In this document: piece after piece, positions 3,527 to 25,398 of the stretch
Numbering within the stretch: position 1 is the first letter of the stretch
Layout of the letters: every line of letters starts with the position of its first letter
Assembly (NCBI RefSeq): GCF_001937195.1
Contig: NZ_MSDO01000013.1
Span: 1-54,582, forward strand
DNA from: Salinicola socius
GTDB lineage: Bacteria > Pseudomonadota > Gammaproteobacteria > Pseudomonadales > Halomonadaceae
Length of the DNA: 54,582 nucleotides
Reading direction: 5' to 3'
Program-made: the position numbers and the translations under genes
The notes under the pieces: model-generated
Told to the model about the DNA's origin: nothing
The model's database searches: none
What the model saw: the letters and a program-made list of their open reading frames with translations, nothing else

Positions 3527-4327
3527 ATGAGACTGCGCAAGAGCCTGGTGATGCTGGTCTATCTGCTGTTCGTGCTGGTGCCGATCTACTCGCTCGTCAA
3601 CATGTCGTTCAAGTCGAATCGGGAAATTCTCGGTGGTCTGACGCTCTGGCCCACCGCCCCGACACTGGACAACTATCGTGTCGTTTTCACCGAGCCGACC
3701 TGGTACACGAGTTATCTCAACTCTCTCAGCTATGTCTCGATGAACATGCTGATTTCGTTGCTGGTCGCGTTGCCGGCCGCCTATGCGTTCTCGCGCTATC
3801 GCTTCCTGGGCGACAAGCACATGTTCTTCTGGCTGCTGACCAACCGGATGGCGCCGCCAGCCGTGTTTCTGCTGCCATTTTTCCAGCTTTACTCGGCGGT
3901 AGGGCTGTTCGATACGCCGATCGCGGTGGCACTGGCGCACTGCCTTTTCAACGTGCCGCTGGCGGTGTGGATTCTCGAGGGTTTCATGTCATCGGTGCCC
4001 AAGGAGATCGACGAAACCGCGTATATCGATGGCTATACCTTCCCCAAGTTCTTCATCCGGATCTTCCTGCCGATGATTCGGCCCGGCATCGGGGTCACGG
4101 CGTTTTTCTGCTTCATGTTCTCCTGGGTCGAACTGCTGCTGGCGCGAACGCTGACGTCGGTCGATGCCAAGCCGATCGTGGCGCAGATGACCCGTACGGT
4201 TTCGGCGTCAGGCATCGACTGGGGCGTGCTGGCGGCCGCGGGCGTCGTCGCGCTGTTACCCGGCATCGCCGTGATCTATTTCGTGCGCAACCACGTGGCC
4301 AAGGGCTTCGCCCTGGGTCGCGTCTGA
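3527..4327 (+). CDS. glpQ: Glycerol ABC transporter permease GlpQ
   Basis: Second permease subunit, MalG-like, 266 residues. It has an N-terminal helix, several further membrane helices and an EAA-type loop (KEIDETAYIDGYTFPKFFIR) that should dock on an ATPase subunit. It starts 8 bases after glpP; AAGGA at the end of glpP can serve as ribosome binding site. It would form the translocation channel with GlpP. It is unrelated to the E. coli periplasmic phosphodiesterase GlpQ. Confidence 0.82.
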   Translation: MRLRKSLVMLVYLLFVLVPIYSLVNMSFKSNREILGGLTLWPTAPTLDNYRVVFTEPTWYTSYLNSLSYVSMNMLISLLVALPAAYAFSRYRFLGDKHMFFWLLTNRMAPPAVFLLPFFQLYSAVGLFDTPIAVALAHCLFNVPLAVWILEGFMSSVPKEIDETAYIDGYTFPKFFIRIFLPMIRPGIGVTAFFCFMFSWVELLLARTLTSVDAKPIVAQMTRTVSASGIDWGVLAAAGVVALLPGIAVIYFVRNHVAKGFALGRV

Positions 4328-4355
4328 TCCGCCTGGCCAGAGAGAGGGGAATCGT

Positions 4356-4628
4356 ATGGGCTGGATGGCCTGGACACTACCGACGGCATTGTTCTTTGCG
4401 GGAATCGCGTTGCTGCTGGTGGCGATGACGGTGTGGCAGACCGTATCCCCCGGGCGAGAACGCAAGGGCTTCCTGCCGCTGACGACATCGCGCGGCGATC
4501 GGCTGTTCATCGGCCTGCTCGCATCGGCCTACGGCCATTTGCTGGTTCTGGCACTCACCGACTGGCCGCTCTGGGTCGCGACCGCGATCTGCGCGACAGG
4601 CATGGCAATCATCATGAAATGGGGGTAA
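4356..4628 (+). CDS. glpU: Small integral membrane protein, DUF2160 type (GlpU position)
   Basis: A 90-residue protein with about three hydrophobic segments (near residues 5-25, 45-65 and 67-85) and a short basic loop (RERKGF) between the first two. Small membrane proteins of this type sit between glpQ and glpV in rhizobial glycerol transporter operons, where the gene is called glpU and has no established function. AGAGAGGGG lies before the ATG. It probably accompanies the transport complex, but its role is unknown. The symbol is assigned by position and family resemblance. Confidence 0.7.
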   Translation: MGWMAWTLPTALFFAGIALLLVAMTVWQTVSPGRERKGFLPLTTSRGDRLFIGLLASAYGHLLVLALTDWPLWVATAICATGMAIIMKWG

Positions 4629-4710
4629 CGCATCGACCAGGGATCATCGTTCTTCATCGGATAGCGCCACGACAGCAAACGGACGAAGGATAACAAAGAG
4701 GGTTAACGCC

Positions 4711-6459
<1,749 letters not shown>

Positions 6460-21116: not shown

Positions 21117-21746
21117 ATGAGTGTGCATGCGATCTCCCATCCCCTGGTCAAACACAAGCTTGGACTGATGCGGGCCGCCGATATCAGCACCAAGAGCTTT
21201 CGTGAGCTGGCCTGTGAAGTGGCCAAGCTGCTGACCTACGAGGCGACTCAGAACCTGGAGATGGAACCGGCGACGATCGAGGGCTGGAACGGCTCGCCGA
21301 TCGCCGTCGAGCAGATCAAGGGCAAGAAGGTCACCATCGTGCCGATTCTGCGTGCCGGCCTGGGCATGCTCGACGGGGTCACCGACCTGATCCCCAGCGC
21401 GCGTATCAGTGTCGTCGGGCTCTACCGTAACGAAGAGACCCTGGAGCCGGTGCCCTATTTCGAGAAGTTCGTCAGCGATCTGGACGAGCGCCTGGCGATC
21501 GTCATCGATCCGATGCTGGCGACCGGCGGCTCGATGGTGGCGACGCTGGACATGCTCAAGGAGCGAGGTTGTCAGCAGATCAAGGTCATCGTGCTGGTGG
21601 CGGCGCCGGAAGGGATCGAGCGTGTACAGAAGGCCTACCCCGACATCGAGATCTACACGGCCTCCGTCGACGAGCGACTCGACGAGAATGGCTATATCGT
21701 GCCAGGGCTGGGTGATGCCGGCGACAAGATATTCGGTACGCGGTGA
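21117..21746 (+). CDS. upp: Uracil phosphoribosyltransferase
   Basis: Makes UMP from uracil and PRPP. 209 residues, close to the E. coli length (208). Landmarks are [12 protein letters not shown] at the N-terminus, the PRPP site [11 protein letters not shown] and the uracil-binding C-terminal [16 protein letters not shown]. The stop overlaps the GTG start of mobA by 4 bases, tying the salvage genes to the molybdenum cofactor genes in one transcript. Confidence 0.95.
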
Positions 21747-22405
21747 TCGACCGCTCCGATGTGACAGGCGTGCTGTTGGCCGGCGGTCGCGGGCAGCGCA
21801 TGGGTGGCGTCGACAAGGGCTGGGTGAGTCTCGACGGTGTTCCCCTGGTTCAGCAGGCTTTGCAACGTCTCGCGCCTCAGGTTGGCGGTATCGTCATCAG
21901 TGCCAATCGCCATATCGATCGCTATCGGCGGCTGGGGTATCCCGTCGTCGTGGATTCATTGCCTGACTATCCGGGGCCATTGGCCGGCGCGCTGGGTGCA
22001 CTGCACCACGTTGCCACGTCCTGGATACTGTTGGCACCCGTGGACATGCCGTGGCTGCCTGCCGACCTGCTGAGCCGGCTCTCGAATGACCTTGGTGAGT
22101 CCGATATTGCGGTCGCCCACGACGGCGAACGTCTCCAGCCACTGGTCGCGCTGATACGGAGTTCGCTGGTCGAGGATTTGGCGCAATGGCTGGATGCGGG
22201 GGGCGGCAAGGTCGTCGGCTGGTACGCGCGTCACCGCTGGTGCCAGGTCGATTTCTCCGATCGGAGCGCGCAGTTCGTCAATCTGAACACCCCGGAAGCG
22301 TGTGAGCGGGCCGAGCGACATCGGCCGGGTTCCATCATATCGAGGCAAGAGGCGCCCGCGCAGGATCGGAGCGCGGGGCGCGGCGGAGAGAATCTGGATG
22401 AGTGA
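21743..22405 (+). CDS. mobA: Molybdenum cofactor guanylyltransferase MobA
   Basis: Transfers GMP from GTP to molybdopterin to form the MGD cofactor of DMSO-reductase-family enzymes. 220 residues with a Rossmann-like nucleotidyltransferase fold. The signature [16 protein letters not shown] is at residues 11-26, and [14 protein letters not shown] carries the metal-binding aspartate. It starts with GTG, overlapping the upp stop (GTGA), and overlaps mobB by 8 bases. The last about 30 residues are arginine-rich and not conserved. Confidence 0.9.
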
Positions 22406-22973
22406 CGCCGCCAGCGCGATCGTCTGTGACATCCCCCTCCTGGGTATTGCCGCCTGGAGCGGGACCGGCAAGACCACGCTGCTGGAGGCGCTGCTGCCTC
22501 GGCTGCGCGAACGGGGCTGGCCGACGGCGGTCATCAAGCATGCCCATCACGATTTCGATGTCGATAAACCTGGCAAGGACAGCCATCGCTTGCGCGAGGC
22601 GGGAGCGACCCCCATGGTGGTGGCTTCCGGCCGTCGTTTCGCGCTGATGATGGAAACCCCTGGCCAGCAGGAACCCGATCTGGCGCTGCTGGTAGCACAG
22701 GTTGCGGCCTTGAAGCCCGCGCTGATTCTGGTCGAGGGATTCAAGACATGGCCCATTCCCAAGCTGGAGTTGTATCGTGGCAGTCAAGATCGGCCGCCGG
22801 CAGCGGGGGGCGACCCCTGGGTCCAGGCCTTGGCCTACAAGCCTGCAGAGTTGTCTGTCGTGACGCTCGAGACTTTACCTTCGACGGTCAGGCAGCTGAA
22901 TCTGGATGATCTCGAAGAGATTCTCGACTGGATGATCGACTGGGCAAGTCGCCAGCAAGATATACAGCGCTGA
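22398..22973 (+). CDS. mobB: Molybdopterin-guanine dinucleotide biosynthesis adapter MobB
   Basis: GTP-binding adapter that assists MobA. 191 residues. The P-loop reads AWSGTGKTTL near residue 20, and the family region VIKHAHHDFDVDKPGKDSHR follows. The ATG at 22398 lies within the end of mobA (overlap ATGAGTGA), so translation is probably coupled. An in-frame start at 22302 would lie wholly within mobA. Confidence 0.9.
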   Translation: MSDAASAIVCDIPLLGIAAWSGTGKTTLLEALLPRLRERGWPTAVIKHAHHDFDVDKPGKDSHRLREAGATPMVVASGRRFALMMETPGQQEPDLALLVAQVAALKPALILVEGFKTWPIPKLELYRGSQDRPPAAGGDPWVQALAYKPAELSVVTLETLPSTVRQLNLDDLEEILDWMIDWASRQQDIQR

Positions 22974-23103: not shown

Positions 23104-23934
23104 ATGACGCTCACGCATCTCAACGCGCGTGGTGAAGCGCACATGGTCGATGTCGCCGATAAGCAGGAGACGCGGCGCGAAGCGCGAGCTCGCGGTGCCG
23201 TTCATATGCAGGCTTCGACCCTGGCATTGCTGTCCGAAGGCGGATTGCCGAAAGGTGATGTTCTGGCCACGGCGAGGATCGCCGGGATTCAGGCTGCCAA
23301 GCGCACCCACGAACTGATTCCGCTCTGCCATGCGCTGGCGCTGTCGAAGGTCACCGTCGAATTTACCCTGGATGCGGAACACGACTGTGTTCACGTCGAG
23401 GCGTTCTGTCGGCTCAATGGCCGGACCGGCGTCGAGATGGAAGCGTTGACGGCTGTCTCGGTGGCGTGTCTGACGCTATACGACATGTGTAAAGCGGTCG
23501 ACAAGGGCATGACCATCGATGGGGTTCGGCTGGAAGAAAAGCGCGGCGGACGCTCGGGAGAATGGCTGCGCGAGACGGCGCCCGAGTCGACGCAGCGTCC
23601 AGAGAATGAGGCACCGGAAGAAGCCATCGAACCGTCATCGATGGGGTTGATCGATCCTTCCGGCGCGGTATCGACAGCAAGCGATCTCAAGGTTCAGTTT
23701 CTGGCCGAGCTGCGTGAAAGATTCGAGATGCCCGAGATCTTGCTGAGTTGGGACCAGCTCCCGTCTCATGATATCGCCGGGGTCAAGCTAGCCCTGATCA
23801 ACCAGGATCCGAAGTTCAAGGCGCTGCAGAACCAGCGTGTGCTTTGCGCCCGCAATGACGCCATGTGCCAGGATGGGGCGGCCATTGTGCGGGGGGATCG
23901 GATCGCATTCTTTCCGCCGGTTACCGGCGGTTGA
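23104..23934 (+). CDS. moaCD: MoaC-MoaD fusion (cPMP synthase and molybdopterin synthase small subunit)
   Basis: A 276-residue protein joining two molybdenum cofactor steps. Residues 1 to about 158 are MoaC, which forms cyclic pyranopterin monophosphate (cPMP). The catalytic region [10 protein letters not shown] (127-136) and [10 protein letters not shown] are intact. Residues about 159-192 form an acidic, proline-rich linker. Residues about 193-276 are MoaD, the sulfur carrier of molybdopterin synthase, ending in [13 protein letters not shown]. The terminal Gly-Gly needed for thiocarboxylate formation is exactly at the protein end, so MoaD should be usable. MoaE follows 16 bases later. In most bacteria moaC and moaD are separate. 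The continuous frame through a composition-biased linker argues against a sequencing error. Confidence 0.9.
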
Positions 23935-23950: not shown

Positions 23951-24412
23951 GTGAGGATTGCCATCAACGTACACGATGCACGCTTCGATGCCGAAGTTGA
24001 GCAGCAGCGGCTGACGGCAGGGCGGTCCGATGTCGGTGCCGTCGTCAGCTTTACCGGCCGGGTAAGGGATTTCAACGAGCGCCCGGATGTCACCGCACTG
24101 ACTCTGGAACATTTCCCCGGGATGACCGAGAAGGCGCTGCATGAGATTGCCCGGGAAGCCGGGGAGCGCTGGGCGCTTCAGGGCGTGACTATCATTCATC
24201 GTATCGGGCGTCTCGAGCCGGGAGATGCCATTGTCCTGGTCATGACTGCCAGCGCGCATCGTCGCGCGGCGTTCGAGGCATGTGATTTCATCATGGACTA
24301 TCTGAAAACGCGGGCCCCTTTCTGGAAAAAAGAGCATACCGACCATGGCTCTTACTGGGTGTCCGAACGACAAAGCGATCGCGAGGCTGCGGATCGCTGG
24401 GAGCATTCATGA
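23951..24412 (+). CDS. moaE: Molybdopterin synthase catalytic subunit MoaE
   Basis: Inserts two sulfurs, delivered by MoaD thiocarboxylate, into cPMP to give molybdopterin. 153 residues. Landmarks are [36 protein letters not shown] and the active-site lysine region [12 protein letters not shown]. The GTG start at 23951 was chosen because GAGGGG lies just upstream and [13 protein letters not shown] fits the family N-terminus. Its stop overlaps the moaA ATG by 4 bases. The partner MoaD is carried on the preceding fusion protein. Confidence 0.92.
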
Positions 24413-25398
24413 CCGCTTTGATCGACAAGTTCTCGCGCCAGGTTCGCTACGTGCGAATCTCGGTGACGGATCGGTGTGATTTTCGCTGTGTCTACTGCAT
24501 GAGCGAAGAGATGACCTTCTTGCCAAGGGCTCAGGTGCTGTCTCTGGAAGAGCTGCATCAGGTCGCTCGTGCGTTCTCCGAACTGGGCGTGGAGAAGATA
24601 CGCCTGACCGGCGGCGAGCCGTTGGTACGCAAGGGTATCGATGATCTGGTTGCGGGTATCGGGGCGCTGCCGGGGCTCAAGGACTTCTCCATGACCACCA
24701 ACGGTGCGGGGTTGCGCAAGCATGCTGAAGCGCTGCATCGCGGCGGAATGACGCGTCTCAACGTCAGCCTTGACTCCCTGAATGGGGAGCGCTTTCGCCA
24801 GCTCACGCGGACCGGGGACCTGAACAAGGTCATCGATGGTATTCACGCAGCCCAGGATGCCGGCTTCGAGAAGATCAAGCTCAATGCGGTCATTCTCCGC
24901 GGTCGCAATGACGATGAAGTTCTGGATCTGGTGGACTTCGCTCGCGATGAGCATCTGGATATCAGCTTTATCGAGGAAATGCCGTTGGGCGATGTGTCGG
25001 ATCACTCACGGGGGGAGACGTTCTATTCAAGCGATGATGTGCAGAAAGAGATCGAATCCCGCTATGCGCTGATGCCGTCGACGGAGACAACGGCGGGCCC
25101 CTCGCGCTACTTCCGCATGGCGGATAGTGCCAGTCGCATCGGTTTTATCTCCCCCCATAGTCATAATTTCTGCAGCACCTGCAATCGAGTCCGTGTCACC
25201 GTCGAAGGGCGTCTGTTGCTGTGTCTGGGCAATGAGCATTCTGTCGATCTACGTGGGACTTTGCGCCGCTATCCTGGCGATCTGACACCGCTCAAGGAGC
25301 AGATTGTCGCTGCCATGGATTTGAAGCCGGAACGTCATCACTTTACGACCGACGGTGATGTGCAGGTCGTGCGGTTCATGAATATGACAGGTGGTTGA
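24409..25398 (+). CDS. moaA: GTP 3',8-cyclase MoaA
   Basis: Radical SAM enzyme that starts molybdenum cofactor synthesis by cyclising GTP. 329 residues. The N-terminal 4Fe-4S motif is CDFRCVYC (residues 23-30), the SAM-binding [10 protein letters not shown] follows, and the C-terminal cluster motif is CSTCNRVRV with a third cysteine in LLLC. The C-terminal Gly-Gly needed for function is present. The gene ends the mobA-mobB-moaCD-moaE-moaA group. In E. coli a molybdenum cofactor-sensing RNA precedes moaA; here moaA overlaps moaE and no such leader is possible. Confidence 0.94.

Follow-up and report, generated by a model that had tools for sequence, protein, structure and literature searches.

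A gene that joins MoaC and MoaD in one reading frame across the Halomonadaceae

Salinicola socius carries, between mobB and moaE, a single open reading frame that encodes both MoaC and MoaD, and this raises the question whether the two proteins are genuinely made as one chain and, if so, what this means for the synthesis of the molybdenum cofactor (Moco). We analysed a window of 54,582 nucleotides, by which we mean the whole stretch of DNA under study (contig NZ_MSDO01000013.1 of assembly GCF_001937195.1), in which the frame runs from ATG to TGA without a stop and translates into 276 residues (Table 1). A preliminary description, made from the letters alone, had read it as a complete MoaC and a complete MoaD in one uninterrupted frame, and translation, Pfam profiles and predicted folds all bear this out. 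The full 136-position MoaC model of Pfam (PF01967) aligns with residues 14 to 149 (E 2.6e-57; 193.1 bits at a cut-off of 27) and the NCBIfam model TIGR00581 scores 218.4 bits, above its cut-off of 141.5, while the ThiS/MoaD model of Pfam (PF02597) covers residues 198 to 276 (E 6.7e-8; 33.4 bits at a cut-off of 22.5). The MoaD half stays under the NCBIfam equivalog cut-offs (36.0 of 66.15 bits for TIGR01682 and 37.8 of 94 bits for PRK11130), and we call it MoaD because of its fold, its Gly-Gly end, its being the sole copy and its place beside moaE rather than because of an equivalog score. Three NCBIfam models for bifunctional MoaC proteins (PRK03604, PRK14499 and PRK14500) align with the MoaC part alone and remain under their cut-offs; the profile matches include no NCBIfam model for a MoaC-MoaD fusion, which marks a gap in annotation.

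Table 1. Coordinates of moaCD, its parts and its neighbours in the window
Feature	Position	Strand	Remarks
mobA-like NTP transferase	21743..22405	+	profile match
mobB	22302..22973	+	frame as listed; true start possibly further in
moaCD (MoaC-linker-MoaD fusion gene)	23104..23934	+	276 aa, ATG start, TGA stop
MoaC domain, residues 1-154	23104..23565	+	Pfam core 23143-23550; fold match 4pyd/1ekr
linker, residues 155-194	23566..23685	+	40 aa, net charge -7, predicted disordered
MoaD domain, residues 195-276, terminal Thr-Gly-Gly	23686..23931	+	Pfam and fold match
moaE, MPT synthase large subunit	23951..24412	+	153 aa from GTG 23951, start inferred; PRK10678 193.6 bits, cut-off 175
moaA, GTP 3',8-cyclase	24409..25398	+	TIGR02666 372.7 bits, cut-off 284.05

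An AlphaFold2 monomer model predicts both domains mostly at pLDDT >90 and residues 169 to 187 at <50. Foldseek pairs the predicted MoaC half with 4pyd_C, the MoaC of E. coli (TM 0.95 by target), and the MoaD half, a beta-grasp fold, with E. coli MoaD as found in molybdopterin synthase (1fm0_D; TM 0.87 by target) and in the MoeB-MoaD complex (1jwb_D; TM 0.82). K50, H76, E111, E113, D127 and K130 are identical in all 66 aligned fused sequences, E111 and E113 being conserved active-site residues of MoaC. In our reading of the sequences, K50, H76, D127 and K130 match by position Lys62, His88, Asp137 and Lys140 of Mycobacterium tuberculosis MoaC2, which contact GTP (PMC3602415). The same 66 of 66 sequences keep both C-terminal glycines of MoaD.

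The fused gene lies between mobB and moaE in the order mobA, mobB, moaCD, moaE and moaA, with the moaA start overlapping the moaE stop by 4 nt, and moaE directly follows the fused gene in all 82 distinct loci. An RNA scan of the window gave two tRNA matches only and thus no Moco riboswitch. Across the whole genome (100% complete; 4.17 Mb in 156 contigs), MoaC has one match, which is the fusion, and the ThiS family has two, the fusion and a 66-residue ThiS with what looks, by reading, like a thiazole synthase (ThiG) frame immediately behind it. A profile search of this genome found no free MoaC and no free MoaD; as its sole MoaC and sole MoaD, the fusion must therefore supply both functions. 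The ThiF family likewise has two matches, the stronger one in a 257-residue frame as expected of MoeB. It had been suggested that the thiocarboxylate end of the fused MoaD remains free for activation of the MoeB type, and the invariant Gly-Gly together with this MoeB-type gene is what such activation would call for.

There are seven matches at six loci to the molybdopterin oxidoreductase family, so that the cell presumably makes and uses the cofactor. This family also includes members without the cofactor, such as NuoG, but going by gene content the genome probably needs Moco. Loci L196 and L200 (G000:C90:41162-42814), which belong to the same genome, hold a frame of this family with one in-frame TGA; this could, as a guess, be a selenocysteine formate dehydrogenase.

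Within the genus of the window, all 18 genomes (its own included) match residues 1 to 276 in one frame without a stop. In the salt-loving GTDB family Halomonadaceae, 267 of 275 genomes have a match, and the fused frame runs unbroken to residue 276 in 259 of these 267 (150, 80 of 80, 7, and 22 of 24 with a match, summed over the family listings), with all 22 genera that have matches represented among the fused genomes. G260, G262, G263, G268, G270 and G272 are taken as fused from a single match each (E 1e-91 to 1e-95). A stop between the two parts in close relatives would have spoken for two genes, and the family frames examined hold none beyond two broken copies, in G113 and G266, whose genomes are both only about three quarters complete. 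The first of these (L121/L138; G113:C11:263126-263933) has a frameshift just after the linker in a genome that is 76% complete, and this may be real or an assembly error; in G266, the fused copy lies in three pieces. Eight family genomes are without a MoaC match (G156 to G159, G181, G189, G243 and G274), and as some of them are 95% to 99% complete, they may have lost Moco synthesis. We had also considered a sequencing error or an accident of a single genome, which we reject given the genus and family counts.

Among named loci (the best 80 of 587), the two parts are fused in nine of nine Halomonadaceae and in none of the other 71, a number of which lack a moaD within the stretch examined. The fused proteins of Litchfieldella xinjiangensis (L040) and Halomonas jincaotanensis (L041) recur unchanged in two family genomes, which identifies family f1 of our samples as Halomonadaceae. 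In an order sample of 390 genomes, three fused genomes from another family (f37, genus g81) appear among the matches listed, and in f37 itself (116 genomes) the fusion is present in 10 of 11 genomes of g81 and in none of 99 other genomes with a match. Samples of the class (369 genomes) and the phylum (398) gave no fusion outside Halomonadaceae among the matches listed, so that the answer to how widely the fusion occurs, a question left by the preliminary description, is nearly all of the family genomes with a match and, among the samples and matches listed, only g81 of f37 beyond it. The matches listed are the best of 360 for the order, 241 for the class (E up to 1e-40) and 251 for the phylum (E up to 1e-45), and low-scoring genomes beyond them possibly carry the fusion as well. 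One draft genome of f37 with 3% contamination has two different full-length fused copies (G717:C11 and G717:C63).

We think it quite probable that the fusion acts as one bifunctional protein, with a MoaC hexamer bearing tethered MoaD arms that MoeB charges and MoaE uses. In molybdopterin synthase, the C-terminus of MoaD reaches into MoaE as a thiocarboxylate. The C-terminal glycine of MoaD has a role in this enzyme (PMC8832034), and MoaC structures are hexamers built as trimers of dimers (PMC3602415). The MoaC half of the fusion would convert the MoaA product to cPMP, presumably in such a hexamer, and each subunit would bear a MoaD with free Gly-Gly end on a disordered arm of 21 to 86 residues across the family. 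MoeB would adenylate the tethered MoaD, a sulfur donor would then form the thiocarboxylate, and the charged MoaD would dock, presumably without any cutting, into MoaE, the product of the next gene, to yield molybdopterin from cPMP. With its six MoaD arms, one hexamer could bind as many as three MoaE dimers, and cPMP would thus be produced beside the enzyme that uses it, near the exit of MoaC.

The functional interpretation offered earlier, that fusion places cPMP production next to molybdopterin synthase and forces equal amounts of the two proteins, is partly supported. Proximity and a 1:1 ratio of MoaC to MoaD do follow from a single chain, provided that it stays whole and neither domain is degraded, while any channelling of cPMP would go a step further. 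The precursor cPMP is reported to be relatively stable and to diffuse, even from cell to cell (PMC9370521), so proximity may bring little benefit. For plants, a multienzyme complex has been suggested since MPT is sensitive to oxidation (PMC9370521, figure legend).

The linker, whose borders at residues 155 to 194 were set by HMM and lie within a few residues of those first proposed (158 and 193), had been called acidic and rich in Pro, Glu and Ser, a fitting description for this protein. We compared linkers over 82 distinct fused proteins (84 fused loci, two of them identical to others) and found a median length of 31 residues with a range from 21 to 86, and of 24 to 64 within the genus of the window. 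They are rich in Ala, Ser, Glu and Pro with a median net charge of -2 (compared to -7 in the window protein), and within the genus their mean identity is 0.37, as compared to 0.88 for MoaC and 0.62 for MoaD. On sequence grounds, this poor conservation is compatible with a simple tether and equally with an arm that has a function. The frame nevertheless stays open through many changes of linker length, and this breadth of lengths with only two of 267 family copies broken argues that continuity is selected. The longest linker, of 86 residues in a 324-residue frame, contains tandem QPSAA / QPNAV repeats in frame (L122; G168:C10).

A peptide starting with IVT is found in the linkers of 30 of the 82 proteins, followed nine residues on by E-V in 25 of these 30, with PIVTG.G..GEVS.G.RC...PC as its fullest form. 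Since its codons differ freely at silent sites, what is conserved is the protein sequence and not the DNA. Carriers are of the Halomonas, Vreelandella, Billgrantia and Litchfieldella type (e.g., L035 with its match at 4001-4798, L037, L040 and L041), and none of the 18 members of the genus of the window has the peptide. In a second monomer model, that of the Vreelandella protein L035 with the peptide, residues 159 to 179 have pLDDT <50 and the peptide is predicted to be unfolded.

The same linkers bear on whether the chain survives intact. If a cell protease cut it in the linker, free MoaC and free MoaD would result and the fusion would merely set their synthesis at 1:1. The length and predicted disorder of the linker probably make it accessible to proteases, and MoaD-MoaE fusions elsewhere are reported to need cleavage by JAMM proteins (PMC8832034, PMC11237513). 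In those fusions, however, the C-terminus of MoaD is blocked, a reason that falls away where MoaD comes last. We also see no common cleavage site by eye in linkers that are as divergent in sequence and length as those of the genus, and the one conserved linker peptide is missing there altogether, which leaves cutting as an unlikely explanation.

Free MoaD might also arise from a second, internal start in the linker, that is, from a nested gene, at least in some genera. We compared Shine-Dalgarno energies of internal sites near MoaD (in a 25-codon window) with those of moaC starts, moaE starts and negative windows inside moaC, and the internal median of -3.6 kcal/mol is close to the negative control (-3.8) and far from moaE starts (-9.5), with moaC starts at -5.6. 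Seventeen of the 82 proteins are without any start codon in the 25-codon window, and the best site of the window's gene scores +0.1. Some sites are stronger, as the best tenth of internal sites reaches -9.4 kcal/mol compared to -6.4 for controls; of the eight sites at -9.4 or better, seven lie in IVT-peptide proteins and one (L016) in the genus of the window. Two codons past GE[V/I] of the IVT peptide, 13 of 30 proteins have a start-type codon (ATG, GTG or TTG), which is GTG in eight of eight cases where it encodes a valine after GEV (Shine-Dalgarno -5.3 to -12.3). The remaining 17 of 30, however, have no start-type codon there, and Shine-Dalgarno-like stretches of equal strength lie upstream of non-start codons as well (e.g., CTG in L041 at -11.9 and ATT in L122 at -10.8), so these stretches come from the peptide's own codons. 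Nor is GTG preferred at the valine of GEV (10 of 25, vs 309 of 713 valines in these genes). We therefore regard a nested start as very unlikely overall: going by codons and ribosome-binding sites, it would be no feature of the window or the family as a whole, and some genera with the IVT peptide may have one.

With one uncut bifunctional chain as the reading that we prefer, the next question is how it came about. The fusion would have replaced two adjacent genes like the moaC and moaD of relatives, in which moaD often starts inside or right after the stop of moaC. We examined 63 separate neighbouring pairs, i.e., 66 non-fused rows minus L137, L140 and L141 as pieces of one broken halomonad copy, and found a 4-nt overlap in 35 and a 1-nt overlap in nine, while ten are in the same frame, eight of these with 0 to 12 nt from stop to start. 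As separate pairs so often overlap or share a frame, a merger of translationally coupled genes is the likely path. Seven genomes of the order sample (G285, G447, G467, G321, G327, G486 and G505, among the matches listed) match residues 1 or 3 to 276 in one frame with at least one stop, i.e., as neighbouring in-frame genes. Loci L044, L043, L046, L048 and L056 likewise keep the two genes in one frame, separated by at least one stop codon or by a short gap, an arrangement that comes near to a fusion.

Such arrangements could have led to the fusion by a neutral route, in which an ancestor lost the stop between the coupled genes and a harmless joined form was kept with no gain from proximity. This addresses why the fusion exists and does not exclude a bifunctional protein. 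The same-frame pairs and the seven order genomes just described fit such a history, as do a linker that resembles a tolerated tether and the reported diffusibility of cPMP. Against it speaks how firmly the joined form is held, unbroken in nearly all matching family genomes and all 22 matching genera with breaks in just two copies, each from an incomplete genome, and retained in g81 as a second genus. Long retention is yet no proof of advantage because a return to two genes would require a stop as well as a new start, and we consider the neutral route plausible, though we lean against it.

Trees say little about the number of origins. A MoaC-only tree (93 rows) has three changes between the fused and the separate state, which are weakly supported, and a MoaC+MoaD tree (106 rows) has four, with the broken halomonad copies L121 and L137 coded as separate. 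For this reason, an AU test that rejected one fused clade (p 2.3e-5) is invalid and was set aside. In a reduced MoaC+MoaD tree without L121 and L137 and the long branches L081, L051, L161, L158, L077, L100, L056 and L048, one branch divides 42 fused rows (of 82, the family part having been thinned beforehand) from 54 separate ones with an SH-aLRT of 70. These sequences allow for a single origin followed by transfer into the second family, and an SH-aLRT of 70 is too low to claim it.

Returning to the bifunctional protein, we can tentatively imagine, as a rather doubtful extension, a molybdopterin factory in which a hexamer, having recruited as many as three MoaE dimers with its six MoaD arms and possibly being cross-linked to further hexamers, forms cPMP, sulfurates it twice and hands it on in one assembly, and in which the linker peptide of Halomonas/Vreelandella/Billgrantia-type genera would be an extra docking site. 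Physical coupling of the early steps of Moco synthesis is hard to test with separate proteins, and a natural fusion across a family with a free sulfur-carrier end offers a ready-made system for comparing a linked with a split form.

Fusions of Moco enzymes are already known as a kind, and the pairing of MoaC with MoaD appears new in that we found no report of it. It had been called unfamiliar from the start, and indeed no title or abstract opening returned by our literature searches names it, nor do the parts of PMC6147048 available to us; the sole match to the string 'MoaC-MoaD', in an excerpt of PMC6249292, denotes neighbouring genes of Pseudomonas. Compared to stand-alone MoaC (PF01967, TIGR00581; E. 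coli 1ekr/4pyd), the fusion shares the full domain, the fold and the active-site residues and adds a C-terminal MoaD on a linker, and compared to stand-alone MoaD (PF02597; 1fm0 chain D), it shares the beta-grasp, the Gly-Gly end and the moaE neighbour, with its N-terminus joined to MoaC. Other fusions of MoaC have other partners, as in the NCBIfam models for MoaC-MoaB (PRK03604), MoaC-MOSC (PRK14499) and MoaC-MobA (PRK14500) and in MOCS1A-MOCS1B, a MoaA-MoaC fusion (PMC3602415) that also joins MoaC to a pathway enzyme. For Archaea, MoaD-MoaE, MoaD-MoeB, MoaC-MoaE, MoaC-MoaB and MoaC-MoaC fusions are described (PMC11237513), and in the last three MoaC is joined to a pathway enzyme or to itself, the partner in these accounts never being MoaD.

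Fusions of a sulfur carrier to a partner from its pathway are likewise familiar, such as MoaD-MoeB of Thaumarchaeota, ThiS-ThiG, and possibly MoaD-aldehyde ferredoxin oxidoreductase, which is mentioned along with MoaD-MoaE (PMC1779556), but the partner and the order differ from those of MoaC-MoaD. The closest comparison is the MoaD-MoaE fusion of Deinococcus (DR2607) and some Thermoproteales, in which MoaD is likewise joined to a Moco enzyme. There, MoaD comes first with its C-terminus blocked, and cutting by JAMM proteins is reported to be needed, whereas in MoaC-MoaD the carrier comes last with its end free and this need does not arise. If the halomonad fusion works uncut, a MoaD fusion need not be cleaved, contrary to what has been reported for MoaD-MoaE.
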